In this document: positions 1,923 to 24,372 of the stretch, piece after piece
Position numbering within the stretch: the first letter of the stretch is position 1
Layout of the letters: every line of letters starts with the position of its first letter
Source: a virus
Strand: one strand, 5' to 3'
Virus record (IMG/VR): IMGVR_UViG_3300049893_000500
Coordinates: 1-25,608 of that record
Length of the DNA: 25,608 nucleotides
The notes under the pieces: generated by a model
What the model was told of the DNA's origin: nothing
What the model saw: only the letters and a program-made list of their open reading frames with translations
Databases searched by the model: none
Program-made: the position numbers and the translations under genes

Positions 1923-3819
1923 GAGCTGCTTCGCCTCGTTCTGGCGGGGCCTGCTGCCGGAGCCGCTGCTGACGGTGAGCGAATGGGCGGACGAGCGCCG
2001 CATCCTGAGCCCGAAGGCGAGCAGCGAGCACGGGCCCTGGCGGACGGCGCGCACGCCGTATCTGCGCAAGCCGATGGATGACCTGAGCGCGACGAGCAAG
2101 GTGCGGGAGGTGGTGCTGGTGTTCGGAGCTCAGTTGGGCAAGAGCGAAAGCCTCAACAACTGGATGGGCTACGCGATGGACATCCAGCCGGCGCCGACAT
2201 TGTTCGTGCAGCCAACGATCGACCTGGCGAAGCGCTACAGCAAGATGCGCATCGCGCCGATGATCGAGGCGACGCCGAGCCTGGGCGAGAAGGTGAAGGC
2301 GCCGCGTGAACGCGACAGCGGCAACACGCAGCTGATGAAGGAGTTCGCGGGCGGCTTTCTGATCCTCGGCGGCGCGAATGCAGCGAGCGGCCTGGCGTCG
2401 ATGCCGATCCGCTTCCTGGCGGGCGACGAGATCGACCGCTGGCCGGCTGATGTGGATGAGGAAGGCAGCCCGCTGGCGATCGTGGAGGCCAGGACGCGGA
2501 CGTTCGGGCCGCGTGCGAAGAAGTGCTGGACGTCGACGCCGACGATCGCTGGACGCAGCGCGATCTGGGCGAAGTGGGAAGAGAGCAACAAGCAGGTGCT
2601 GCGTCTGCCGTGTCCGCATTGTCAGCACCGGCAGGTGTTGAGCTGGGACCGGATCCGGTACGACGCGAAAGATCCAGGCCTGCCGAACACGTTGCGGACG
2701 CCGCCGGTGCTGATCTGTGAGGAATGCGGCACGGGGATCGAGGAAGACGCGAAGGCGTGGTGGTACGACCCGGATGTGTTCGACGACGGGTGGTGGGATG
2801 CGGAGCACCCGGATCGGCTGACGCAGGGGTATCACCTCTCGGCTCTCTACAGCCCGTTGGGCTGGTTCAGCTGGACTGAGGCGGCGGTCGGCTACGAGAA
2901 GGCGAAGGACAACCCGGCGGACCTGAAGCCGTGGACGAACACGGTGCTGGCGGAGTGCTGGAACGACGACGGCGAGGCGCCGGACTGGGAGGCGCTTTAC
3001 AACCGGCGCGAGGACTACGACCTGGGCACGGTGCCCGACGGGGTGGTGTTCATCACCTGCGGGATCGACGTGCAGAAGGACCGCCTGGAGCTCGAGGTAA
3101 TTGGCTGGGGCCCGGGCATGGAGAGCTGGAGCCTGGACTACCAGGTGCTGGCCGGCGACACGGCGGAGCCGGATGTGTGGCGCGAGCTGACGAAGTTCGT
3201 GCGCAGCGAGTTCGGCCGCGGCGATGGGCAGCGGCTGCCGATCAGGATGGCGGCGATCGACTCGGGCTTCAGGACCGAGGAGGTGAAGCGCTGGGTGAGG
3301 AAGCAGGCCAGCAACCGCGTGATCGCAGTGAAGGGCGTCGAGAGCCAGGTGAGCGTGATCGGCACGCCGAGCCGTGTGGAGGTGCTGCGCAATGGCAAGG
3401 CGCTGCGCGGTGGCGTGAAGATTTGGCCGATCGGCACGAGCACAGCGAAGGGCGAGCTCTATGGCTGGCTGCGGCGCCGGCTGCCGGAGGAAGAAGGCGA
3501 TCTGCTGCCGCACGGCTGGTGCCACTTCCCGCAGCATGGCGAGGAGTATTTCCGGCAGCTGTGCGCGGAGCGGCTGACGAACACGATCGACCGGCGCGGC
3601 TACAACCGGTTCGAGTGGATCAAGACCCGGCCGCGCAACGAGGCGCTCGACTGCCGGGTCTATGCGCGGGCCGCTGCAGCGCTGGTCGGCGCCGATCGGT
3701 GGAGCGATGAGCGATGGGATCAGGAACGCACCGGCGGCCTGCAACGCGAAGAGCGCCGGCCGGCGCCGGTGCAGGAAGAGCAAGCGCCGGCGCGTTCAGG
3801 ATCGAGCTTCTGGGACTGA
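1906..3819 (+). CDS. terL: Terminase large subunit, lambda GpA family
   Basis: The protein has 637 residues, similar to lambda gpA (641). It is the ATP-driven packaging motor and maturation nuclease. Visible motifs are a Walker A-like loop GAQLGKSE (74-81), Walker B FLAGDEID (170-177), a motif III-like TSTPT (209-213), and a zinc-finger-like pair CPHC (236-239) and CEEC (271-274). The nuclease half has acidic residues in CGIDVQ (D388) and AIDSG (D452). The GpA type (rather than the T4 or HK97 TerL type) predicts cos-like cutting as in lambda, although related phages differ. It follows the small subunit with a 17-base overlap and precedes gpW and portal, as in lambda. Confidence 0.97.
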   Translation: MPASAESCFASFWRGLLPEPLLTVSEWADERRILSPKASSEHGPWRTARTPYLRKPMDDLSATSKVREVVLVFGAQLGKSESLNNWMGYAMDIQPAPTLFVQPTIDLAKRYSKMRIAPMIEATPSLGEKVKAPRERDSGNTQLMKEFAGGFLILGGANAASGLASMPIRFLAGDEIDRWPADVDEEGSPLAIVEARTRTFGPRAKKCWTSTPTIAGRSAIWAKWEESNKQVLRLPCPHCQHRQVLSWDRIRYDAKDPGLPNTLRTPPVLICEECGTGIEEDAKAWWYDPDVFDDGWWDAEHPDRLTQGYHLSALYSPLGWFSWTEAAVGYEKAKDNPADLKPWTNTVLAECWNDDGEAPDWEALYNRREDYDLGTVPDGVVFITCGIDVQKDRLELEVIGWGPGMESWSLDYQVLAGDTAEPDVWRELTKFVRSEFGRGDGQRLPIRMAAIDSGFRTEEVKRWVRKQASNRVIAVKGVESQVSVIGTPSRVEVLRNGKALRGGVKIWPIGTSTAKGELYGWLRRRLPEEEGDLLPHGWCHFPQHGEEYFRQLCAERLTNTIDRRGYNRFEWIKTRPRNEALDCRVYARAAAALVGADRWSDERWDQERTGGLQREERRPAPVQEEQAPARSGSSFWD

Positions 3820-8207: not shown

Positions 8208-8848
8208 CCCATCCCCGCACTCAGATCCGCAGCGCCTTTGTTGGCCGGCTTAGCGCGAACATCACCCCGCCGCCGGCCCAGGGGCAGCAGCCTGGTGCGC
8301 CCACCTATCGCACCGCTGCCGGCCCCCGCGTCTACAGCGGCCGCCTGATGCCGATCGAGGAGCCCGAGCTGCCGGCGATCGTCATCCACACCCGCGAGCC
8401 GGAAGAGATCCAGGGTCGCAGCATCTCCGGCTGGAACGGCTTCGAGCGCCGCCGCTGCATCGTCTCGATCGTCTGCATCGCGCAGAGCTTCGACGACATC
8501 GACGAAGACCTCGACACCATGGCCCAGCAGGTCGAAGCTGCGCTGCAGAGCTGGACGATCCCCGGCTTCGAGTCGAGCGACGCCCTGCTGCTCGACACCA
8601 AGAGCGACGACCCAGAGTTCGACGGCGCGCTGACAACCGGCGCCACCACACTCCGCTACGTGGTGACCTACCAGACGCCCTACCGCGAGTGCAGCAACCC
8701 CTACGTCATTGACGGCGACGATCCCCTGGAGCGCAGCGGCGCCTATCCTGGAGGCCAGGTGACGCCGGGCTGCCCAGCAGACAACTCCGGCGAGGCCTGC
8801 CCTGTGGCAGACGCCACCATCACCGCCAACGGCGAGGAGCTCACCTGA
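8204..8848 (+). CDS. Tail terminator protein, lambda gpU-like
   Basis: The protein has 214 residues and overlaps the previous gene by four bases (ATGA). The core (about 1-160) resembles lambda gpU-type terminators: a first helix (THPRTQIRSAFVGRL), VYSGRLMPIEEPELPAIVIHT, an acidic helix DDIDEDLDTMAQQVEAAL and a final strand LRYVVTYQT. These proteins cap the tail tube and mediate joining to the head. A C-terminal extension (about 165-214) holds three cysteines (C163-area, and GCPADNSGEACP) and is absent in the short lambda protein. Its role is unknown. Confidence 0.75.
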   Translation: MTHPRTQIRSAFVGRLSANITPPPAQGQQPGAPTYRTAAGPRVYSGRLMPIEEPELPAIVIHTREPEEIQGRSISGWNGFERRRCIVSIVCIAQSFDDIDEDLDTMAQQVEAALQSWTIPGFESSDALLLDTKSDDPEFDGALTTGATTLRYVVTYQTPYRECSNPYVIDGDDPLERSGAYPGGQVTPGCPADNSGEACPVADATITANGEELT

Positions 8849-9216
8849 TGGCAACCACCCGCAAGCGCGCCCGCACCGACGAGGGCAAGTTCATGGGCGA
8901 CGACCCGGCAACCCCGGAGCGCAACGAGGCCTACGTGCAGGACATGCCGCTGAGCGTCGACAGCCTCGCGGCCTTCATGGAGATCGAGCAGCCGGACCGC
9001 AAGCGCCTCGGCCTGGCCCTGGAGCTCGCCAAGGAAGCTGCGCTGGCGGTTACCGGCCGGCCCGTGGGCGACACCGCCCCGCACGCCATCCGCCACGGCG
9101 TCCACATGCTCGCCTCACAGCTGCTGATCAAGGATCAGCTCGAAGCCGCGCCCCAGGGCGCCGAGATCCCCGGCGTCGTGCGCTACCTGTGGAAGACCGC
9201 CGATGCTGGGCGTTAA
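8848..9216 (+). CDS. Head-tail connector, gp6-like
   Basis: The protein has 122 residues; its ATG overlaps the previous TGA. After a charged N-terminus, the segment MPLSVDSLAAFMEIEQPDRK, a helix with AKEAALAVTGRP, a long HAIRHGVHMLASQLLIKDQ helix and a terminal EIPGVVRYLWK motif follow the HK97 gp6 / SPP1 gp15 adaptor pattern. Such adaptors bind the portal as a ring. The family call rests on pattern and context. It is the only gene here ending in TAA, and the next gene starts inside it. Confidence 0.65.
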   Translation: MATTRKRARTDEGKFMGDDPATPERNEAYVQDMPLSVDSLAAFMEIEQPDRKRLGLALELAKEAALAVTGRPVGDTAPHAIRHGVHMLASQLLIKDQLEAAPQGAEIPGVVRYLWKTADAGR

Positions 9217-10070: not shown

Positions 10071-10909
10071 TGGCGACGATCGACTTCAGCAGCATCCCCG
10101 ATCCGACGATCATCGAGGAGCTCGACTTCGAGACGATCCTTGCGGCGATGATCGCCGACCTGCAGGCGCGCGACCCGTCCTACACCGAGATCCTCGAAAG
10201 CGACCCGGGCATCAAGATCCTGGAGGTGGCCGCCGCCCGCGAGCTGATCCTGCGGCAGCGGATCAACGATGCGCTCCAGGCCACCCTGCTGCGCTATGCC
10301 GGCGGCGCCGACCTCGACAACCTGGCGACCTTCTACGCCGTCACGCGCCTCGAAGACGAAACCGATGCAGCGCTGCGCTCCCGCGTGATCGAGCGCATCA
10401 TGGGAAGCAGCACAGCCGGCGGCGCGGCCTGGTATCGCTACCAGGCGCTGACAGCCAGCGAGCTGGTGAAGGATGCGGCCGTAAGCTCCCCGGCGCCCGG
10501 TGAGGTGCTCGTCAACATCCTCTCGACCCAGGGCAACGGCACCGCCAGCAACGAGCTGCTCACCGCGGTCGACGCGGTGCTGCAGAGCGACAGCGTGCGG
10601 GTGATCACCGACGTCGTCACGGTCGCCAGCGCGACGATCAACACGGTGCCGGTCACCGCGCAGGTCTACCTCTACCCCGACACGCCGATCGAGGCGTTCA
10701 ACGGCCTGCAGGCCCAGCTGCAAGCCGCCTTCGCCGCGGCCTCGGGCCTGGGCTGGGACGTCACCCGCTCCTGGCTCATCGCGCAGCTTCATCCTGCTGG
10801 CGTGCAGCGCGTGGTCTTGACCGCCCCCGCAGCTGATGTAGTCTGCGGCCCCAGTCAGGCTCCGGCTCTGGGCGCAATCACGCTCACGATGGCGGGGCGT
10901 GACCGATGA
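10070..10909 (+). CDS. J: Baseplate protein, P2 gpJ family
   Basis: The protein has 279 residues (P2 gpJ 302). Baseplate_J features are the N-terminal DPTIIEELDFETIL, the ESDPGIKILEVAAARE helix with LRQRINDALQA, YAGGADLDNLATFY and the AALRSRVIERI helix. The later part has VYLYPDT and a gpJ-like terminal domain. It forms the wedge of the P2-type baseplate with gpW and gpI. Neighbouring genes overlap by one to four bases on either side. Confidence 0.96.
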   Translation: MATIDFSSIPDPTIIEELDFETILAAMIADLQARDPSYTEILESDPGIKILEVAAARELILRQRINDALQATLLRYAGGADLDNLATFYAVTRLEDETDAALRSRVIERIMGSSTAGGAAWYRYQALTASELVKDAAVSSPAPGEVLVNILSTQGNGTASNELLTAVDAVLQSDSVRVITDVVTVASATINTVPVTAQVYLYPDTPIEAFNGLQAQLQAAFAAASGLGWDVTRSWLIAQLHPAGVQRVVLTAPAADVVCGPSQAPALGAITLTMAGRDR

Positions 10910-11751
10910 GCCGCTTCGATCTTCTCCCACCCAACGCCACGACCTTGGAGCGGGATTTCTCCCGCTCCACTTCCAGCCTGCAGCGCGCTGGCGGCCCTGT
11001 GCCGATCATCCGCACAGCGAAGCGGGTCAGCATCCCCGACTCGGTGGTGCCATGGCTGATCTACGAATACGGCCTGGGTGAGATCCTTCCCTACCTGGGC
11101 AACAACCAGCGGCGGGCCCTCGCGGAGGGCGTGCTGTGGCAGCGGATCCGGGGCACGCCCGAAGCAGTCCGCGTTGCTCTGAGCTGGATCAACGTCGAGG
11201 GCCTGATCGACGAATCCGAAGGCGGCTCCTACCGCTGGGCTGAATACCAGCTGGGGCTCTCGGAAGCGACGCAAGGCGAGCAGATCATCAGCGACATCGT
11301 TGGGGTCTGCCAGATCAGTTCCCCGGTGCGCTCGCGTCTGCAGCGCATCTATGCGGTCTATGACTTCCGCCGCTTTGTGCTCGACAGCAGCCTGCTGTCG
11401 GACGGCGGGATGCTCAGCGATCACAGCGGCGTGCGGCCGCGGCCCGACTGGCCGCAGATCAGCTACGGGCAGATCCTCTCCAGCCTGGTGGAGGAGAACG
11501 CCACGGTCGCCAGCACGCACACCGACGTGATCGGCGTGCTCGTGCGGAACTTCGATCGGTTCCTGCTCGATCACAGCCTGATGGATGAGGAGTGGCACAC
11601 CCTCAACCATCCAGGGATGCTCACCAATCAGGAAGGGGTGAGCGGGAAATACGAGGGCCAGACGTGGGCCGCGATCACCTGGCAGCCGACAACAACCTGG
11701 CTCGACACGAACGCCGTCGCATCGAGCACCGTGACAACCCAGACGGCGTAG
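10906..11751 (+). CDS. I: Tail protein I with duplicated C-terminal extension
   Basis: The protein has 281 residues, about 100 more than P2 gpI (176). Residues about 5-150 match the P2 gpI family: DLLPPNATTLERDF, a PWLIYEYG segment, and RIRGTPEAVRVALSWI. The extension contains an apparent duplication: residues about 155-188 (RRFVLDSSLLSDGGMLSDHS) and about 217-252 (DRFLLDHSLMDEEWHTLNHP), each ending near YGQ/YEGQ. The extension could attach the fibre or DUF4815 apparatus to the baseplate; this is inferred from its place before those genes. Confidence 0.9.
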   Translation: MSRFDLLPPNATTLERDFSRSTSSLQRAGGPVPIIRTAKRVSIPDSVVPWLIYEYGLGEILPYLGNNQRRALAEGVLWQRIRGTPEAVRVALSWINVEGLIDESEGGSYRWAEYQLGLSEATQGEQIISDIVGVCQISSPVRSRLQRIYAVYDFRRFVLDSSLLSDGGMLSDHSGVRPRPDWPQISYGQILSSLVEENATVASTHTDVIGVLVRNFDRFLLDHSLMDEEWHTLNHPGMLTNQEGVSGKYEGQTWAAITWQPTTTWLDTNAVASSTVTTQTA

Positions 11752-14210: not shown

Positions 14211-15638
14211 ATGCCCCTCACAGCAAACGCAGCCGGTCAGATCTCGGGGTCGTTCACGATCCCCGCCAACGTGCCCGTCGGCACAAAGCGCGTCACCTTC
14301 CTGGGCAACCAGGGCAGCTTTGGCGCCGCGCGCTTCATCGGCTCCGGCACGATCCTCACCCGCACACAGCGGCAGCTCACCACCATCGAGACCCGCTTCT
14401 GGGATCCGCTGGCGCAGACCTTCCGCCTCGATCAGTCGCGGCATGTGACGGGCGTGGACTTCAAGTTCACGGCGCGCGGCAACACCGCCAACAAGGTCTA
14501 CCTGGAGATCCGCGAGACCGAGCTCGGCCTGCCCAACGCCACTACGCTCGCAGAAGGTGTGATCCAGGGCACGGCGATCACCGTCAACGCCTGGAACAAG
14601 ATCAGCCTCACCAAGCCCGTCTACCTGCAGGCCGGCGTTGAATACGCGATGGTGCTGCTGACCGACGACGCTGAGCACGCGGTCGGCCTCGCTGAGCTCG
14701 GCAAGTTCGACAGCGCCGCCCAGCAGTTCGTCACCTCGCAGCCCTACACGATCGGCACGCTGCTCAAGTCGAGCAACGCCTCGACCTGGACCCCGGTGCA
14801 GGAGTCGGACCTTACCTTCCGCATGTACGGGGCCCGCTTCACCAGCACCACCCGGACGGTGAACCTGGGCCAGCTGCGCGGCGCTGCGGTGTCAAGCCTG
14901 ACCCGCTCCGGCGGCACCGCGACGCTCACAACCAGCACGCCGCACGGCTTCGTCACGGGCCAGAAGGTGGTCATCAGCGGCGCCACCCAGGCCGACTACA
15001 ACGGCGCCTACACGGTCACGGTGACGGGGCCGACGACGTTCACCTACACGGTGGCGAACAGCCCGGCGACGCCCGCAACCGGCACGATCCTGATCTCGGC
15101 CGGCGACATCACCGACCTGGTGGCGCTCGCCGGCGTCGAGCGGATCAGCTCCGAGACCGACGCCGAGTTCATCTTCACCAAGCCCGACGGCTCGCAGATC
15201 CGCGGCGCCGACAACGCCCGCATTCAGCTGGCCGAGGACGTCAACGTGCCGCTCACCCTCTCGGCGGTGCTGCGCGGCACCGCGACAGCGAGCCCGTATC
15301 TGTTCGCCGGCAGCCAGGCCCTTTACGGCAATTTCGGCGAGACCGGCTCCTACGTCAGCCGCGCGGTGCCTTGCGCAGCCGGCGCGAAGGTGAGCTGCAC
15401 CTTCGAGTCGCTGCTCCCTGGCGCCTCGAGCGTGCTGGTGGAGTTCGAGAACAGCGATGGCACCTGGCAGACCGTGACGCTGACCAGCAGCTCGCCGGTC
15501 GGCGATGGCTGGGTGGAGCAGGTCCACACCGTCGCCAACTTCGCCGCCGGTGGCACGACCACCCGCGTGCGCCTTACCCTCACTGGAACGGCTGCCGCCC
15601 GTCCGCAGCTGCGCCAGCTCCGTCTCGTGGTGATCTGA
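14211..15638 (+). CDS. DUF4815-associated tail protein, C-terminal portion
   Basis: The protein has 475 residues. It opens with MPLTANAAGQISGSFTIPAN and a DPLAQTFRLDQSRHVTGVD segment, a module that in related phages continues a DUF4815 protein. The middle (about 230-300) is a beta domain with THSTPHGF-like STPHGFVTGQKVVISG and YNGAYTVTVTG, an Ig-like or ubiquitin-like surface module. The rest is beta-rich without cysteines of note beyond C386-C393 region. It starts five bases after the upstream stop, in the -1 frame. It may act as an independent subunit or be a frameshift-separated half. Confidence 0.75.
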   Translation: MPLTANAAGQISGSFTIPANVPVGTKRVTFLGNQGSFGAARFIGSGTILTRTQRQLTTIETRFWDPLAQTFRLDQSRHVTGVDFKFTARGNTANKVYLEIRETELGLPNATTLAEGVIQGTAITVNAWNKISLTKPVYLQAGVEYAMVLLTDDAEHAVGLAELGKFDSAAQQFVTSQPYTIGTLLKSSNASTWTPVQESDLTFRMYGARFTSTTRTVNLGQLRGAAVSSLTRSGGTATLTTSTPHGFVTGQKVVISGATQADYNGAYTVTVTGPTTFTYTVANSPATPATGTILISAGDITDLVALAGVERISSETDAEFIFTKPDGSQIRGADNARIQLAEDVNVPLTLSAVLRGTATASPYLFAGSQALYGNFGETGSYVSRAVPCAAGAKVSCTFESLLPGASSVLVEFENSDGTWQTVTLTSSSPVGDGWVEQVHTVANFAAGGTTTRVRLTLTGTAAARPQLRQLRLVVI

Positions 15639-15642
15639 TCCC

Positions 15643-17703
15643 ATGCCCATCGACGACCGCACAGCCAACCGCAGCTACAAGCTGCCCAATGCTGGTAACT
15701 TTCTGGCTGACGACGTGCAGCGTCTGCGCGATGCGCTGACCGCGATCGACGCGGACATCTTCGCCCGCTACACCAAGACCGAGACCGATCAAAAGCTGGC
15801 AGATCTGATCAACGGCGCGCCGGGTGCGCTCGACACGCTGAACGAGCTGGCGGCTGCGATGGGGAACGATCCCAGCTTTGCAGCGACGATCACCAATGCG
15901 CTCGCGGGCAAGCCTGGCTTCGCAGACGTGTGGACGCGCACGCAGGCTGATGCGCGCTACGTGCAGGGCGTCACGCAGACCGAGAACGTCTTCACTGGGA
16001 ATGGCAGCCAGACCACGTTCGCACTGAGCCAGACGCCGCCCACCAGGGAATCACTGCTGGTGACGGTCGACGGCGTGATGCAGCCAGTCAGCGAGTACAA
16101 CCTCAGCGGTTCAGCGCTGATCCTCAGCGAGGCCCCTGCCAGCGGCTCGAAGATCCGCGTGCTGATGCTTGGCGTCGCTGGACCGGTGCAAAGCGCGAGC
16201 ACCCTGTCGTTCACCCAAGCTGGAACTGGTGCTGTCACGCGCACGGTCGACAGCAAGCTGAAGGATCTGATCAGCGTCAAGGACTTTGGCGCGGTTGGTG
16301 ACGGGGTGGCCGATGACACTGCGGCCATCCAGGCGGCGATCAATGCAGCAAGGACGCAAAACAGTGTTGTCTATTTCCCACCCAACAACACCAGCCAGAT
16401 CTATAAGATCACCGCTCCGCTGACATGCAATGGCCCGATCAGCATCATCGGCGCAGGGCCGCAAGCCGTCACCATCTGGGCGCAAGGCTTCTCGGCAGGC
16501 CAGTTCATTCTTGATTTTAACCTGCCAGTTGCCACCAACTACTTCTTCGACATCCACGGCATCACGCTAAGGAGCAACAACGGAGCGCCCAACGGCCTGC
16601 GGCTGAAGAATACGTCCTACTGCACCATCAAGAACCTTCAGATCTACAACGTTGCCAATGGCGTTGAGATCTCCGGTGGTAACTGCTTCTCCAATTTCTT
16701 TGAGAACCTAGCCTGCTATCAGGTATCGGGTCGAAGCGTCAGCTTTGTATCCTTCACGGGCGGCGGTCACTACACCTTTAGTCACTGCACTTTCACCGGC
16801 AACTATGGCGTTGACGTTGACTCGGCAAGCGGCATTAGCCAGCTCGCTTTTGTGAGCTGCAACTTCGAGCAGTGCGTCAGCAATAGCTTCTACACGCTTG
16901 GCACCGTTCAAGGCCTGTCTTTTGTTGGGTGCCGGACTGAAGGCTTAGATGGCAGTTCGGACTTCTTGATCTACCCGTCGGCTGGCAACAAAGTCACCGG
17001 ACTCAGTGTTACAGGATGTTATTTCACGACTGATGCCGGGGCATCAGTTCCAATCTATCTGGGCGGCAACAGTGGCCCCGTGCGCGGTTTTCAGATCTGC
17101 GGCAATCACGTTGAATACGCAGCGGCCAGTAACTTTGTGACTCTGAATGGCGACGGAGAGTCAGGCCTAATCGCGGGCAACTATTTCAATCTGACCACAA
17201 CGACGCCAACAAACGTCAGACGTCCTGGTGTTGTCGTCTACGGCAACGAGAACGGATCCGGCAAATGCACCGAAAGCTGGGGCAATGCGAACTGGGGCAT
17301 CGAAGAAGGCAGCTTTACGCCTTCATGGCAGGGCGTCACTGTCACAGGCAACACCGTTCCCCGCAACAACGTTGGTCGTTACCGACGCGCTGGAAACATG
17401 GTGACGGTGTGGATTCTGGGCGACTATGTGCTGAACAGTTACACCACTAAGCCAACGGGACAAGTTCGGATCTCAAATCTTCCATTTGTCGCGGCATCCG
17501 ATCACATCACTGTCGAGTTCCCTGCTACAGCGACGCGAGTCACGCACAGCATGCCAATCTTTGGGGCGCTGTACGGCGGCAGCAACTCATTACTGCTGTT
17601 CGAGGAAGCAAACAACCTCTTGAACAGTCCCACAGCGCTGGATTGGACTGCCATCAGGGATCCCTTCGGCAACCTGTCCATGCAATTCAGCTATCGAATC
17701 TGA
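15643..17703 (+). CDS. Tailspike/fibre with pectate-lyase-fold beta-helix
   Basis: The protein has 686 residues. Residues 1-110 are a fibre-type N-terminus: ADDVQRLRDALTAIDADIFA, YTKTETD and the common LDTLNELAAAMGNDPSF repeat. Residues 115-180 form a fibre domain with TFALSQTPP and VTVDGVMQPVSEY. From about 204 the Pectate_lyase_3 entry motif LISVKDFGAVGDGVADDTAA begins a right-handed beta-helix to about 555, with rungs such as GVEISGGN. The last 130 residues (EGSFTPSWQGV, NVGRYRRAGNMVTV) are a trimerisation/capping module seen in other spikes. It probably binds or cleaves host surface polysaccharide. From about 16350 the DNA is less GC-rich than its neighbours, suggesting module exchange. 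Confidence 0.92.
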   Translation: MPIDDRTANRSYKLPNAGNFLADDVQRLRDALTAIDADIFARYTKTETDQKLADLINGAPGALDTLNELAAAMGNDPSFAATITNALAGKPGFADVWTRTQADARYVQGVTQTENVFTGNGSQTTFALSQTPPTRESLLVTVDGVMQPVSEYNLSGSALILSEAPASGSKIRVLMLGVAGPVQSASTLSFTQAGTGAVTRTVDSKLKDLISVKDFGAVGDGVADDTAAIQAAINAARTQNSVVYFPPNNTSQIYKITAPLTCNGPISIIGAGPQAVTIWAQGFSAGQFILDFNLPVATNYFFDIHGITLRSNNGAPNGLRLKNTSYCTIKNLQIYNVANGVEISGGNCFSNFFENLACYQVSGRSVSFVSFTGGGHYTFSHCTFTGNYGVDVDSASGISQLAFVSCNFEQCVSNSFYTLGTVQGLSFVGCRTEGLDGSSDFLIYPSAGNKVTGLSVTGCYFTTDAGASVPIYLGGNSGPVRGFQICGNHVEYAAASNFVTLNGDGESGLIAGNYFNLTTTTPTNVRRPGVVVYGNENGSGKCTESWGNANWGIEEGSFTPSWQGVTVTGNTVPRNNVGRYRRAGNMVTVWILGDYVLNSYTTKPTGQVRISNLPFVAASDHITVEFPATATRVTHSMPIFGALYGGSNSLLLFEEANNLLNSPTALDWTAIRDPFGNLSMQFSYRI

Positions 17704-17705
17704 TC

Positions 17706-17945
17706 ATGACTGAACCGACCATCAACCTGATTGAGACCCACGCCACCGGAGTGGTGATGATTCGCTATGTCGTCAAAGAGGACGGCAAAGATGACGAGTA
17801 CATCCGCAGCTCGTTTGAGCCAGGCCAGGATGTCAGCGACCAGCCGCAAGAGATTCAGGATGCCTGCGCTGCAGCCTGGACGCCCGAGGTGCTGGCTTCA
17901 TGGCAGCAACGCTTGAACCAGCCCGCTGCTCCTCTTGAGCCGTGA
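17706..17945 (+). CDS. Small protein following tailspike
   Basis: The protein has 79 residues from ATG 17706, two bases after the tailspike stop. An upstream in-frame ATG at 17643 lies inside the tailspike and is not preferred. The sequence MTEPTINLIETHATGVVMIR, an acidic EDGKDDEYIRSSF loop and a PEVLASWQQRL helix suggest a small soluble alpha/beta protein. I do not recognise a named family. Small genes directly after fibre or spike genes often encode assembly chaperones or caps, so that role is possible but unproven. Confidence 0.7.
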   Translation: MTEPTINLIETHATGVVMIRYVVKEDGKDDEYIRSSFEPGQDVSDQPQEIQDACAAAWTPEVLASWQQRLNQPAAPLEP

Positions 17946-17992
17946 CCAAACTCAGAGACCTGGCCAGCAGCCTTCCTCTCGCAACCTGACCC

Positions 17993-18658
17993 ATGCCACT
18001 GCAAAGGATTCCCGGCGCCATGGTGTCGGATTCGACAATCACCTCAGCCGACGTTTAAGACGGCAGCCTCACAGGCGCTGATGTGCAAGACGCATCGCTC
18101 ACCGGCGCTGACGTCCAGGACGGCACGCTGACCGGAACAGACATTCAGGACGCAAGCATTCAAGGCGCTGATCTTGCTGCTGGCGCTACGGCGATCGCGC
18201 GCGACACCGCCAAGGCTTCAACGTCAGGTGTTGCCGTGGAGTTCACCGGCATCCCCTCCTGGGCCCGGCGGATCACCGTGCTTTTCAACGGCGTTTCGAC
18301 CAACGGCGCAACCAACATCCTCGTGCAGCTCGGCACTGGCGGCGCACCCACAACGTCGGGCTATGCCGGCTACAGCGTCTTCTCCTGGGCCAGCGGCATC
18401 GTGCCTGTCACGTCCACGGCTGGCATTCCAGTGTTCAACAACGCCGCCAGCTATAACCACTACGGCGAGCTGGTGCTGACGAACATCAGCGGCAACACCT
18501 GGGTGGCGTCGGGGCAATTCGCCACCGCCGGAACGCAGGGCTCGACGATCTCCAGTGGCGCCGTCACCCTTGCCGGCGTTCTGAACTATCTCCGCGTCGT
18601 GACCGCCAACGGCACCGACGCTTTCGACGCAGGCTCGATCAACGTCCTCTACGAGTGA
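17993..18658 (+). pseudogene. Decapeptide-repeat tail protein broken by TAA
   Basis: Reading from ATG 17993 gives MPLQRIPGAMVSDSTITSAD V, then TAA at 18056-18058, then an uninterrupted frame to TGA 18656-18658. The downstream part alone can start at GTG 18083 (191 residues). Five 10-residue units run from 18029 to 18178 (consensus D-[GA]-[ST]-[LI]-T-G-[AT]-D-[VI]-Q). The stop sits exactly at the Q of the first unit, where later units have CAA or CAG, so a single C-to-T change explains it. The C-terminal 140 residues form a beta-rich domain (VEFTGIPSWARRITVLFNGV) common in phage fibres and collar proteins. It is probably a tail fibre or receptor-binding accessory. A GTG at 17942 in the same frame is followed by TGA at 17987. 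Confidence 0.7.
18029..18178 (+). repeat. Five 30-bp coding repeats
   Basis: Units lie at 18029-18058, 18059-18088, 18089-18118, 18119-18148 and 18149-18178. They encode DSTITSADV-stop, DGSLTGADVQ, DASLTGADVQ, DGTLTGTDIQ and DASIQGADLA. The pattern has the five-residue periodicity of pentapeptide repeats and may form a stalk or solenoid. DNA units have diverged at third codon positions. Confidence 0.85.
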
Positions 18659-18825: not shown

Positions 18826-20238
18826 ATGACAACGACCTTTCTGCACGGCGTAGAGGTCCTCCAGATCGACACTGGGGCCCGGCCGATCCAGACCGTCCGA
18901 TCCTCTGTGATCGGCCTCATCGGCACCGCACCTGATGCGGACGCCGCCAAGTTCCCTCTCAACACCCCCGTCCTGATTGCTCGTCGCAGCGAGATGGCGG
19001 GCCTCGGCGAAGCCGGCACCCTTCAGTCGGCGCTCGACCTGATCTACGACCAGGCCGGCGCTGTCGTTGTCGTGGTTCGCGTCGACGAGGGCGCGAACGA
19101 AGCCGCCACCATCGACAACGTGCGCGGCGGCATCAACAACACCACCGGCGCCTACGAAGGCGTTCACGCCTTCCTCGCTGCTGAGAACGAAGTCGGCTTC
19201 AGCCCCCGCATCCTGCTCGCCCCTGGCTTCACCCACCAGCGCACCAGCAACGGCATCCTCTCGATTGCCGTCCAGACCCAGGGCAGCGGCTACACCACCG
19301 CCCCGGCCGTCACCATCAGCGGCGGCGGGGGCTCCGGCGCCACTGCAGTCGCGGTGCTCGGCACCGGCGCCAACGCTGGCAAGGTGGTGAGCTTCACCAT
19401 CACCAACCCCGGCAAGGGCTACACCACCAACCCCACCGTCGCCATCGCTGCTCCCCCCGAGGGCGGCGTGCAGGCCGTGGCTGGGACCGTCAACCGCGGC
19501 ACCGTCCGCTCCGAGGTGCTGGCCGAGCTACTCGGCATCGCCAACCGCCTCCGCGCGGTGATCATCGCCGACGGCCCGAACACCACCGACGCTGCAGCCA
19601 TCCAGATCGCTGACGACTTCGGCTCCGATCGCATCTACGTGATCGACCCCTGGGTGCTCCGCAATGGCGAGAGCGTCCCCGCTTCCTCCGCCGTCGCTGG
19701 CCTGATCAACAAGGTCGACAACGAGCGCGGCTTCTGGTGGAGCCCCTCCAACAACGAGATCGCCGGCATCGAGGGCACCTCGCGCGCCATCGACTTCACC
19801 CTGGGCGACTACACCAGCCGGGCGAACCTGCTCAACGAGGCCAAGATCGCCACGATCGTGCGCGAGCAGGGCTTCCGCCTCTGGGGCAACCGCACCCTGG
19901 CGATGGATCCGCTCTACGCCTTCCTGAGCGTGCGGCGCACCGCCGACATGGTCAACGAGAGCATCCTGCGCGGCCACCTGTGGGCCGTCGATCGCTGCAT
20001 CACCGCCACCTACCTGGAGGAGGTGCAGGAGAGCGTGCGCGGCTACCTGCGCAGCCTCAAGGCCCGGGGCGCAATCCTCGGCGGCGACGTCTGGGTGGAT
20101 CCTGATCTCAACAGCCCGACCAGCATCGCCAACGGCCAGGTCTTCTTCGACTTCGAGTTCACGCCTCCCTATCCCGCGGAGCGCGTGACCTTCCGCAGCC
20201 ACCTGGTCAACAGCTACGTCGTTGATCTCTTCGCTTGA
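18826..20238 (+). CDS. FI: Tail sheath protein with inserted repeat domain
   Basis: The protein has 470 residues; P2 FI has 396. AGGAGG at 18808-18813 stands 12 bases before ATG 18826. Sheath features include FLHGVEVLQIDTG, SSVIGLIGTAPDAD, an AGAVVVVVRV strand, RILLAPGF, and the C-terminal WAVDRCITATYLEEVQESV and PPYPAERVTF segments that form the inner, tube-contacting domain. Residues about 143-219 are an insertion with two GxGYTT-[AN]-P repeats. The protein contracts to drive the tube through the host envelope. It opens the P2-ordered block FI-FII-E-E'-T-U-X-D. Confidence 0.95.
   Translation: MTTTFLHGVEVLQIDTGARPIQTVRSSVIGLIGTAPDADAAKFPLNTPVLIARRSEMAGLGEAGTLQSALDLIYDQAGAVVVVVRVDEGANEAATIDNVRGGINNTTGAYEGVHAFLAAENEVGFSPRILLAPGFTHQRTSNGILSIAVQTQGSGYTTAPAVTISGGGGSGATAVAVLGTGANAGKVVSFTITNPGKGYTTNPTVAIAAPPEGGVQAVAGTVNRGTVRSEVLAELLGIANRLRAVIIADGPNTTDAAAIQIADDFGSDRIYVIDPWVLRNGESVPASSAVAGLINKVDNERGFWWSPSNNEIAGIEGTSRAIDFTLGDYTSRANLLNEAKIATIVREQGFRLWGNRTLAMDPLYAFLSVRRTADMVNESILRGHLWAVDRCITATYLEEVQESVRGYLRSLKARGAILGGDVWVDPDLNSPTSIANGQVFFDFEFTPPYPAERVTFRSHLVNSYVVDLFA
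19252..19485 (+). repeat. Glycine-rich repeat domain inside tail sheath
   Basis: Two related coding repeats are present: GSGYTTAPAVTISGGGGSGA at about residues 153-172 and GKGYTTNPTVAIAAPPEGG at about 197-215. They lie between RILLAPGF and AELLGIANRLRAVI of the sheath. Similar GxGYTxxPxV repeats occur in phage fibre and bacterial surface proteins. The domain is probably exposed on the sheath exterior. Confidence 0.75.
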
Positions 20239-21195: not shown

Positions 21196-23426
21196 TCGGC
21201 GGCGGCCCCCAGAAGATCACGGTCGAGATCGGCGGGAAGATCGGCGCCAGTCTCGGATCGGCTCTGCGCGGCGCGCAGATGCAGGTGTCGTCGTTCGGGC
21301 GGAACGTCAGCCGGACGATGAATGACGCCGCCTCCGCGGGCAAGAAGGGCTTCAAGGGGATGTTCGACAACGCGCTGTGGCAGCAGGCCGCAGCCGGCGC
21401 TGCAGCGATTGGCGTGGGCATGGTGGCCAGCGTCAAGGCGGCCGCGCAGTTCGAGCAGGTGCTGAGCGAGATCGGCAAGACCTCCGGCGCCACGAGCGTG
21501 GAAATCAAAGGCATCAGCAAGGATCTGCTGTCGCTCTCCGGCCGCAACCGCACCAACCTCGGCCCGAAGATCCTGGCGGACGGCGTGCAGGATCTCGTCG
21601 CCCAGGGCCTCAGCCTCAAGGATGCAGTCGCCTCGATCGAGTCGCTCGGCCGCGTGGCGACCGCCACCAACTCCGAGCTGACCGACGTCACCAAGACCGG
21701 CTTCCAGCTGCAGAACGCGCTGAAGATCCGGCCGACTGAGCTCAAGGCCACCTTCGATGCGCTGGCCTTTGCCGGCAAGCAGGGCGCCTTCGAGCTGAAG
21801 GACATGGCGCAATTCATGCCGACGATCGCTGCAGCGGCAGGGACGCTCGGCATCACCGGCAAGCAGGGCGCCATCGCCCTGGCGAGCATGATGCAGATGG
21901 TGCGCAAGGATGCGCCCGATGCAGGCCAGGCATCGACGCGCCTCACCGACGCGATGCTAAAGATGACCGCGCCGGACGCGGTGAAGAACTTCAAGGAGTT
22001 CGGCGTCAACATCGAGCAGGTGCTGAAGAACGCCAAGGCCAAGGGCGTCAACCCGATGGAGGCTGCGCTCAACGAGCTGCAGCGCGTGACCGGGGGCGAC
22101 GCTTTCAAGCTGGGCCAGATCTTCGGCGATAAGGAGGCCAAGCTCGGCCTGATGTCGCTGATGAAATACCGCAAGGAGTACGAAAAACTGAAGGCCGAGG
22201 CGGGCGGATCGGCCGCGGCCGGCACCGTCGACAAGGACTACCAGCGCCAGGTCCAGACCTTCGCGGGCACGCTGACGAGCTTCCAGAACACCAGCCAGCG
22301 GCTTGGTATCACGCTGGGCAATGCGCTGCTGCCGTCGCTCACGCGCATCGCTGAGGCGATCACGCCGCTCGTCGAGAAGTTCGCAGCCTTCGCCGAGGAG
22401 AACCCGCGCATCACGACCGGCATCGTCGCCGTCGCTGGCGCCTTTGCTGGGCTCGTCGCTGTGGCGCCGTTCGTTTCCGGCCTGATCGGCGTGATCACCA
22501 CGATCGGCCCTGCGCTCGGCGGCATCGCGGCCGCGGCAACCGGCCCCATCGGCATCGCCGTGCTCGCCGTCATCGGCCTGGGCCTCGCGTTCAAGGCGGC
22601 CTACGACAAGTTGGGCTGGTTCCGCGATGGCGTGAACACCTTCGCCGCTTCAGTGCGGCAGGCCTTCGGCGGCCTCGTCACCTACATCGGCGGCGCGTGG
22701 AAGGTCTTCACCGGCATCCTCACCGGCGACACCCAGCGGATCCAGCAGGGCTTCACGCAGGCGTTCAGCGGCCTGCGCACGATCTTCAGCGCCTGGGCCG
22801 GCTGGGTGACGAGCGTCTTCCGCGGCGTCGGCGCAACGCTCGCGGCGGTGCCGAACGCCGTGGGCAATGCCTTCCGGGGCCTGGCGACCGCTATCCAGCT
22901 GGTGACGCAGAACATCTTCAGCGCCTTCCAGCGCGTCGGCCCGGCGATCCTCTCGGTGATGTTCCCGATCCCCGCCGCGATCTACCGCTTCTTCACGCAG
23001 ACGCAGATTGGCCAGCAGATTGTGCAGACGATCATCAACGGCCTCAAGGCCAGGGCCTCCGCGCTGTTCGGCTGGATCTCCGGCGCCTGGGCGCGGATCA
23101 AGAGCATCGTCGGCGGCGGCGGCGGCGGAGGCGCCCCTGCAGGTGCGCAGCCGCCCGGGCGGGCTTCGGGCGGGCCCGTGCGCGCGGGGCAGCCCTACAT
23201 CGTCGGCGAGCGGCGTCGTGAGCTGTTCGTGCCTGGCATGGATGGGGCGATCATCCCGCGCGTCGCCCGGCCCGTTGCAGGCGGCGGCGGTGTCACCATC
23301 AACGCCCCCGTTACCATCAACGCAGCGGGAGGCGACGCGATGGCGATCCGCGATCAGGTGCGCATGGCGTTCGAGGATCTGATCGCCCGCGCTTACGGCG
23401 ACTACCGGGTGGCGCTCAATGACTAG
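21192..23426 (+). CDS. T: Tape measure protein, P2 gpT-like
   Basis: The protein has 744 residues. It sets tail length and is ejected into the cell envelope. The start overlaps the E' stop by four bases. The N-terminal part has QAAAGAAAIGVGMVASVKAA, then the TP901-type core FEQVLSEIGKTSGATSVEIK with the FDALAFAGKQGAFELKDMAQ segment. A central hydrophobic block (about 410-480; VAVAGAFAGLVAVAPFVSGL and GPIGIAVLAVIGLGLAF) contains likely membrane-inserting helices. A glycine run near 640 leads to the typical C-terminal motif ASGGPVRAGQPYIVGERRRE. The length predicts a fairly short tail of order 100 nm, using about 0.15 nm per residue. Confidence 0.95.
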   Translation: MIGGGPQKITVEIGGKIGASLGSALRGAQMQVSSFGRNVSRTMNDAASAGKKGFKGMFDNALWQQAAAGAAAIGVGMVASVKAAAQFEQVLSEIGKTSGATSVEIKGISKDLLSLSGRNRTNLGPKILADGVQDLVAQGLSLKDAVASIESLGRVATATNSELTDVTKTGFQLQNALKIRPTELKATFDALAFAGKQGAFELKDMAQFMPTIAAAAGTLGITGKQGAIALASMMQMVRKDAPDAGQASTRLTDAMLKMTAPDAVKNFKEFGVNIEQVLKNAKAKGVNPMEAALNELQRVTGGDAFKLGQIFGDKEAKLGLMSLMKYRKEYEKLKAEAGGSAAAGTVDKDYQRQVQTFAGTLTSFQNTSQRLGITLGNALLPSLTRIAEAITPLVEKFAAFAEENPRITTGIVAVAGAFAGLVAVAPFVSGLIGVITTIGPALGGIAAAATGPIGIAVLAVIGLGLAFKAAYDKLGWFRDGVNTFAASVRQAFGGLVTYIGGAWKVFTGILTGDTQRIQQGFTQAFSGLRTIFSAWAGWVTSVFRGVGATLAAVPNAVGNAFRGLATAIQLVTQNIFSAFQRVGPAILSVMFPIPAAIYRFFTQTQIGQQIVQTIINGLKARASALFGWISGAWARIKSIVGGGGGGGAPAGAQPPGRASGGPVRAGQPYIVGERRRELFVPGMDGAIIPRVARPVAGGGGVTINAPVTINAAGGDAMAIRDQVRMAFEDLIARAYGDYRVALND

Positions 23427-24372
23427 GCCGCTCTTCCAACTCGGCAGCTTCCAGTTCGACCTGCCGAACGGCGTCCCGCAGACGCTCGACCGCACGGCCG
23501 AGTATCGCTGGGAAGGCCAGGACCGGCTGCTCCGCGACCCGGCGGTGCAGTTCCTCGGCCCCGGCAGCCAGGAGATCACCCTCGACGGCCAGCTGTTCCC
23601 GGGCTTCTCCGGCCGCCAGAGCACGATGGAGACGCTGCGCGAGCTCGCCACCCAGGGCCAGCCGCAGATGCTCACCGACGGCCTGGGCCTCGTCTACGGC
23701 AAGTGGGCGATCAAGCAGATCCGCGAGGGCCTCTCGACCTTCGCGCCCGGCGGCGGCGCCCGGCAGATCGGCTTCAGCATCAGCCTGGTTCGCTACGTCG
23801 AGGACAATCCGGGCGACGCCGCGAGCCCGCTTGCGTTGGCCTTCAACAGCACCGCCGCGTTCGGCCTCGGTTCGGAGTTGCCCAGCTTTACTGAAGCTGA
23901 CTCCGCGTTCAAAGCACTCGATTGGGCGAGTGACCCGCAGTTCAGCGCGATGACGACTCAGGCGCAGCAAGGCGGCTTCAGCCTGGGTCAGCTCGCAACC
24001 ATCGCTACCACTGGCGCCAGAATCGCGCAGCAGGTCAGCTCTGGCCAGTATGTCAACGCGGCCTTGGGCGCCTTCGGGGCGCTTGGAATCCCGGTCGACC
24101 AATCTGATGCGTGGACTCAGATCGGCATCAGCGCCGCCAGACTGGCCGAGTCCTACGCAAACGGCAACGGCCCAACCGGCATGGCTTTGGCGATGGAGGT
24201 CGCATCATCAATCGGAGCCCCGGCGCTGCAGCAACTCGGGATAGTTGCACCAGAAGATCTGCAATCCATCAATTCGCTGCTGGAGAGCACCGCAACAGTC
24301 ACGGAGATCCTGAAGGTAGACCCTGCAGTCACAGAGTCGCTGAGGCCATTGATCGTTTTGACCGGAGGATGA
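23419..24372 (+). CDS. U: Tail protein U with C-terminal extension
   Basis: The protein has 317 residues, about twice P2 gpU (159). Residues 1-135 match gpU: LFQLGSFQFDLPNGVPQTLD, YRWEGQDRLLRDPAVQF, an ITLDGQLFPGF segment and FSISLVRYVED. Residues about 145-317 are an added helical, glutamine- and alanine-rich region (LGQLATIATTGARIAQQVSS, VNAALGAFGALG) of unknown family. The DNA from about 23870 is visibly less GC-rich and uses different codons than the gpU domain. It overlaps the tape measure gene by eight bases. The gpU part is probably a tail-terminating or tail-assembly component. Confidence 0.9.
   Translation: MTRPLFQLGSFQFDLPNGVPQTLDRTAEYRWEGQDRLLRDPAVQFLGPGSQEITLDGQLFPGFSGRQSTMETLRELATQGQPQMLTDGLGLVYGKWAIKQIREGLSTFAPGGGARQIGFSISLVRYVEDNPGDAASPLALAFNSTAAFGLGSELPSFTEADSAFKALDWASDPQFSAMTTQAQQGGFSLGQLATIATTGARIAQQVSSGQYVNAALGAFGALGIPVDQSDAWTQIGISAARLAESYANGNGPTGMALAMEVASSIGAPALQQLGIVAPEDLQSINSLLESTATVTEILKVDPAVTESLRPLIVLTGG

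Follow-up and report, generated by a model that had tools for sequence, protein, structure and literature searches.

A probable nonsense allele of recent origin in a putative accessory tail-tip gene of an uncultured phage with a contractile tail

Truncated adsorption genes have been described in Staphylococcus kayvirus 812K1/420, in which a tail-fibre complex gene was split by a premature stop via a 77-bp deletion and a nonsense mutation interrupted another gene in frame (PMC6445280). The locus reported here resembles these mutants in having a premature stop in a putative adsorption gene. However, the kayvirus mutants were host-range mutants picked in the laboratory, whereas our allele was found in environmental contigs. 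Stop codons at glutamine positions are also a feature of phages with reassigned stops, such as those using code 15, in which TAG encodes glutamine (PMC9523058). There the reassigned codon is TAG and the effect is genome-wide, in contrast to the single TAA in one gene found here. The C-terminal domain of the interrupted gene shared 39-41% identity with the tip domains of Rhizobium phage fibres and of Pseudomonas phage AH02 gp15, a protein named major tropism determinant. In those phages the domain ends long single proteins, whereas here it stands behind a short repeat stalk. Pseudomonas phage PPpW-3 (Hiroshimavirus), with a sheath 63% identical to the one found here, also carries a small gene of fibre type between its fibre and sheath genes, but the protein encoded in that slot is a tail-collar protein and ours has a different domain.

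The stretch of DNA analysed, hereafter the window, comprises 25,608 bases and is a linear fragment of an IMG/VR virus whose tail is contractile. It encodes a gpA-type terminase, a lambda-type portal, a sheath and a pectate-lyase-type spike. The gene at 10906 has its stop codon at 11749-11751. The features around the interrupted gene are collected in Table 1. A frame check on the window confirmed that the frame from ATG 17993 to TGA 18656-18658 has a single internal stop, which takes the place of the glutamine found in the later decapeptide units. With the units phased at 18029-18058, 18059-18088, 18089-18118 and 18119-18148, the tenth codons of units 1-4 are TAA, CAA, CAG and CAG, as the original prediction had stated.

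Table 1 Features of the interrupted gene and its neighbourhood in the window.
Feature	Position	Strand	Remarks
Tail spike, pectate-lyase-like beta helix, intact	15643..17703	+	
Small gene between the spike and the broken gene	17706..17945	+	PHROG 6228, unknown function
N-terminal module MPLQRIPGAMVSDSTITSADV, 21 codons before the stop	17993..18055	+	Common to 29 distinct genes; DNA alignment
Decapeptide units, consensus LTGADVQDxS	18029..18178	+	Scores weakly as pentapeptide repeat, beginning at residue 2 of the putative restart product
In-frame TAA, at the glutamine (tenth codon) of decapeptide unit 1	18056..18058	+	Also in L091 and L106; CAA in relatives
GTG, only near in-frame restart candidate 3' of the stop	18083..18085	+	Weak ribosome-binding site
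C-terminal beta-sandwich domain, open and constrained	18179..18655	+	Kind common at phage tail fibre ends
Tail sheath gene, downstream of the broken gene	18826..20238	+	

The C-terminal domain was modelled as a beta sandwich, with pLDDT >90 from about residue 101 on. The model matched many predicted phage proteins (BFVD), fibre proteins included, and no solved structure was significantly like it. At the sequence level, the gene matched the tail fibre family PHROG 18673 (7.8e-6), and relatives of its C-terminal domain were found at the ends of fibres in various phages, those of Rhizobium among them, as well as in AH02 gp15. This relation to fibre proteins in sequence and fold, together with the location in the tail region next to the sheath, places the gene among the tail-fibre tips. 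The product is probably a small, exchangeable tail-tip protein with a putative role in attachment.

A search for the N-terminal module (M-LQRI-G) recovered 29 distinct genes with the same start position, varying in repeat number and C-terminal domain. Because this start and the module MPLQRIPGAMVSDSTIT are conserved in all of them, the TAA lies inside a truly translated frame: the segment 5' of the stop is the module of the 29 genes, and the segment 3' of it shares 95% identity with the uninterrupted gene in a related contig, G003. ATG 17993 has no Shine-Dalgarno sequence (ribosome pairing +1.3 kcal/mol). In many relatives, the ATG of the module gene immediately follows the stop of the preceding gene, an arrangement that suggests coupled translation. 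In the window the upstream gene stops 47 bases before the ATG, and the usual coupling seems to be lost. The leader in this gap (17946-17992, CGCAACCTGACCC) resembles those of two family members, L085 and L092, despite the 47-base distance to the upstream gene. In the window (17993-18055) and in L085, L092, L094 and L096, a near-invariant N-terminal stretch of ~50 bases is followed by unrelated C-terminal domains, and the stretch looks like a recombination anchor for tail-tip swapping. Upstream of the module gene, the preceding gene often ends like a tip-domain paralogue (LYE or LFE; L008, L011, L013, L014 and L015), so that tip genes seem to stand in tandem in part of the family.

The DNA alignment revealed CAA at the aligned codon in G003, L009, L019 and L085, in a near-identical context: the sequence is GTTCAAGACGG or GTTCAAGATGG in these relatives and GTTTAAGACGG in the window. 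Since close relatives have CAA there, a single C-to-T change explains the TAA. The original prediction had proposed comparing homologues at this codon, and the intact genes were found to start at the same ATG, not downstream of the stop. Over the 171 codons after the stop, dN was 0.008 and dS 0.20 against G003, values that mostly reflect the time before the mutation. They point to strong past constraint on this part of the gene, which does not appear to have decayed yet. We estimated the age of the change from ~390 non-synonymous sites, with half of the dS of 0.20 assigned to the window branch. About 40 non-synonymous changes would be expected had that branch been unconstrained throughout, and the pair with G003 has few; by this estimate, the unconstrained share of the branch may be at most about a fifth. 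Constraint is still visible after the stop, so that either the change is of recent date or the gene continues to yield some protein, two situations that are inseparable on dN/dS data. The intact homologues have one to six decapeptide units. In G003 (L007:708-960) there are six, some of them near-exact 30-base copies, which points to a recent expansion of units.

The same TAA was present in contigs 3300047551_001085 (G001) and 3300043442_000670 (G002), from two other metagenome datasets. They differed from the window at 114 of 7,865 and 47 of 7,588 sites, respectively, mostly in patches, and matched each other's differences across their common stretch; we counted them as one haplotype. The patches (15296-16848, 21503-22112 and 23301-23690) affect the spike, the tape-measure gene and the one that follows it, a pattern like that left by recombination. 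Between 16849 and 21502, the window differed from the two contigs at just three positions, 17977, 18148 and 20925. Only 18148 lies within the gene, and it is synonymous. The TAA is thus found in at least two haplotypes (three contigs), within a young shared block. Scanning IMG/VR for the close context with any base allowed at the site matched the two TAA contigs alone, and a degenerate-pattern scan for other stops at the same place gave only the known lineage. The G002 contig ends inside the broken gene, at window position 18021, perhaps due to repeats or strain variants in the assembly.

We consider it likely that the interrupted gene is a recent nonsense allele of an accessory tail-tip gene, arisen by C-to-T. 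A CAA glutamine codon would recently have become TAA, and translation from ATG 17993 would now halt after 21 residues. The repeat stalk and the beta-sandwich tip would then be absent or made in traces only, and the phage would presumably cope with its intact spike. We infer the absence of the protein from virions, its dispensability and its attachment role. The swapping of C-terminal domains in this family and the differing small fibre gene in the PPpW-3 slot are what an exchangeable accessory would be expected to show. Several observations agree with a nonsense allele: the intact orthologues have a sense codon at the site, the stop lies within a conserved frame, and the allele was seen repeatedly. 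Against a loss speaks the frame after the stop, which is fully open, without further damage. The open frame and the synonymous change at 18148 are compatible with a very young mutation, but also with continued synthesis of some product. The original prediction had listed four options without choosing among them; a nonsense mutation by one C-to-T change agrees with the CAA of relatives and with the constraint after the stop, while a sequencing error is very unlikely. The allele is ordinary in kind, and restart or readthrough is improbable and unsupported.

Ribosomes ending at the TAA could reinitiate at GTG 18083, giving a 191-residue protein that lacks the N-terminal module and the first unit. 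The GTG lies in frame, 24 bases past the stop, the remainder of the gene is open and constrained, and unit number varies among relatives. However, pairing with the ribosome is weak at this GTG (-2.5 kcal/mol, versus -5 to -10 for many window genes), and a product without the module conserved in all 29 genes would probably be unable to attach to the tail. Such a restart is unlikely.

One further in-frame TAA was found in the family, independent of the first. L092 shares the N-terminal module, has a different C-terminal domain and carries TAA at glutamine codon 225 (2875-2877, minus strand), with an open frame after it. It is a single contig. In a scan for this stop no second TAA was found, and 43 relatives have CAA or CAG. 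An isolated TAA at a glutamine thus occurred in 2 of 29 distinct module genes versus 0 of ~206 other dereplicated genes (p 0.015, in a post hoc test that includes the prompting case). L092 is weak evidence for recurrent loss. A more general reading, in which glutamine nonsense is a recurrent off switch or a regulated ochre readthrough site in exchangeable tail-tip genes with the MPLQRIPGAMVSDSTIT module, appears improbable.

Readthrough at the TAA itself would require a host ochre suppressor or leaky decoding, with glutamine or another residue inserted and both short and full-length forms produced. The alignment of the TAA with a glutamine, the intact frame afterwards and the stop in L092, an otherwise unrelated family member, would fit this. 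However, a nonsense change made by a single C-to-T step is expected to fall on a glutamine in any case, and TAA is a normal stop elsewhere in the phage. The ochre suppressor tRNA search that had been proposed found none in the phage contigs (~47 kb of sequence). Nor did we find a stimulating structure, the 120 bases after the stop folding no better than shuffles (z 0.42), and among relatives the stop was confined to the near-identical lineage, which is not what programmed readthrough would show. We regard readthrough as an unlikely explanation. Slippage or a frameshift at the stop was rejected, the tip domain being in frame with the start. Phase variation by deletion of the stop-bearing unit was also considered: unit number varies among relatives, but the units of the window are imperfect and the variant was not found.

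The window is a metagenome assembly, and the TAA might be a sequencing or assembly error, but two contigs with other dataset numbers also carry it and are set apart from the window by real polymorphisms, which makes an error very unlikely.

Reading of TAA as glutamine throughout the genome had already been called unlikely. An all-against-all search for in-frame stops initially gave hundreds of false cases, opposite-strand shadow frames. When only genes that lie on the structural strand and do not overlap were considered, 93 candidates remained, and on reading of the aligned queries these were also shadow frames, except for the window gene and L092. Across the window and G002, 18056 was the only TAA that is flanked on either side by coding-like frame and has homologues in its support. 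The ~25 window genes mostly end with TGA and one with TAA. This one, at 9214-9216, terminates the gene at 8848-9216 and had rightly been taken for a real stop: its L095 homologue likewise terminates with TAA, one codon further on, and no sensible protein results if the window TAA is read past. Stop reassignment would put in-frame stops in many genes and avoid the codon as a terminator; here one gene was affected. No tRNA genes were found in the window, G001, G002 and G003, the phage genome being incomplete. The occurrence of TAA at a glutamine position in two members of one phage family would suit genome-wide recoding, but with a single split gene, TAA in use as a terminator and no tRNA gene found, it is hardly credible.

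Were the full-length protein made despite the TAA, ochre readthrough would, unusually, yield two tail forms here, of which there is no sign now. If, instead, the gene is simply off, as the nonsense allele would have it, the locus shows that an uncultured phage population has recently lost a tail-tip protein in nature, and indicates a modular slot in which one conserved N-terminal piece is combined with interchangeable tips.
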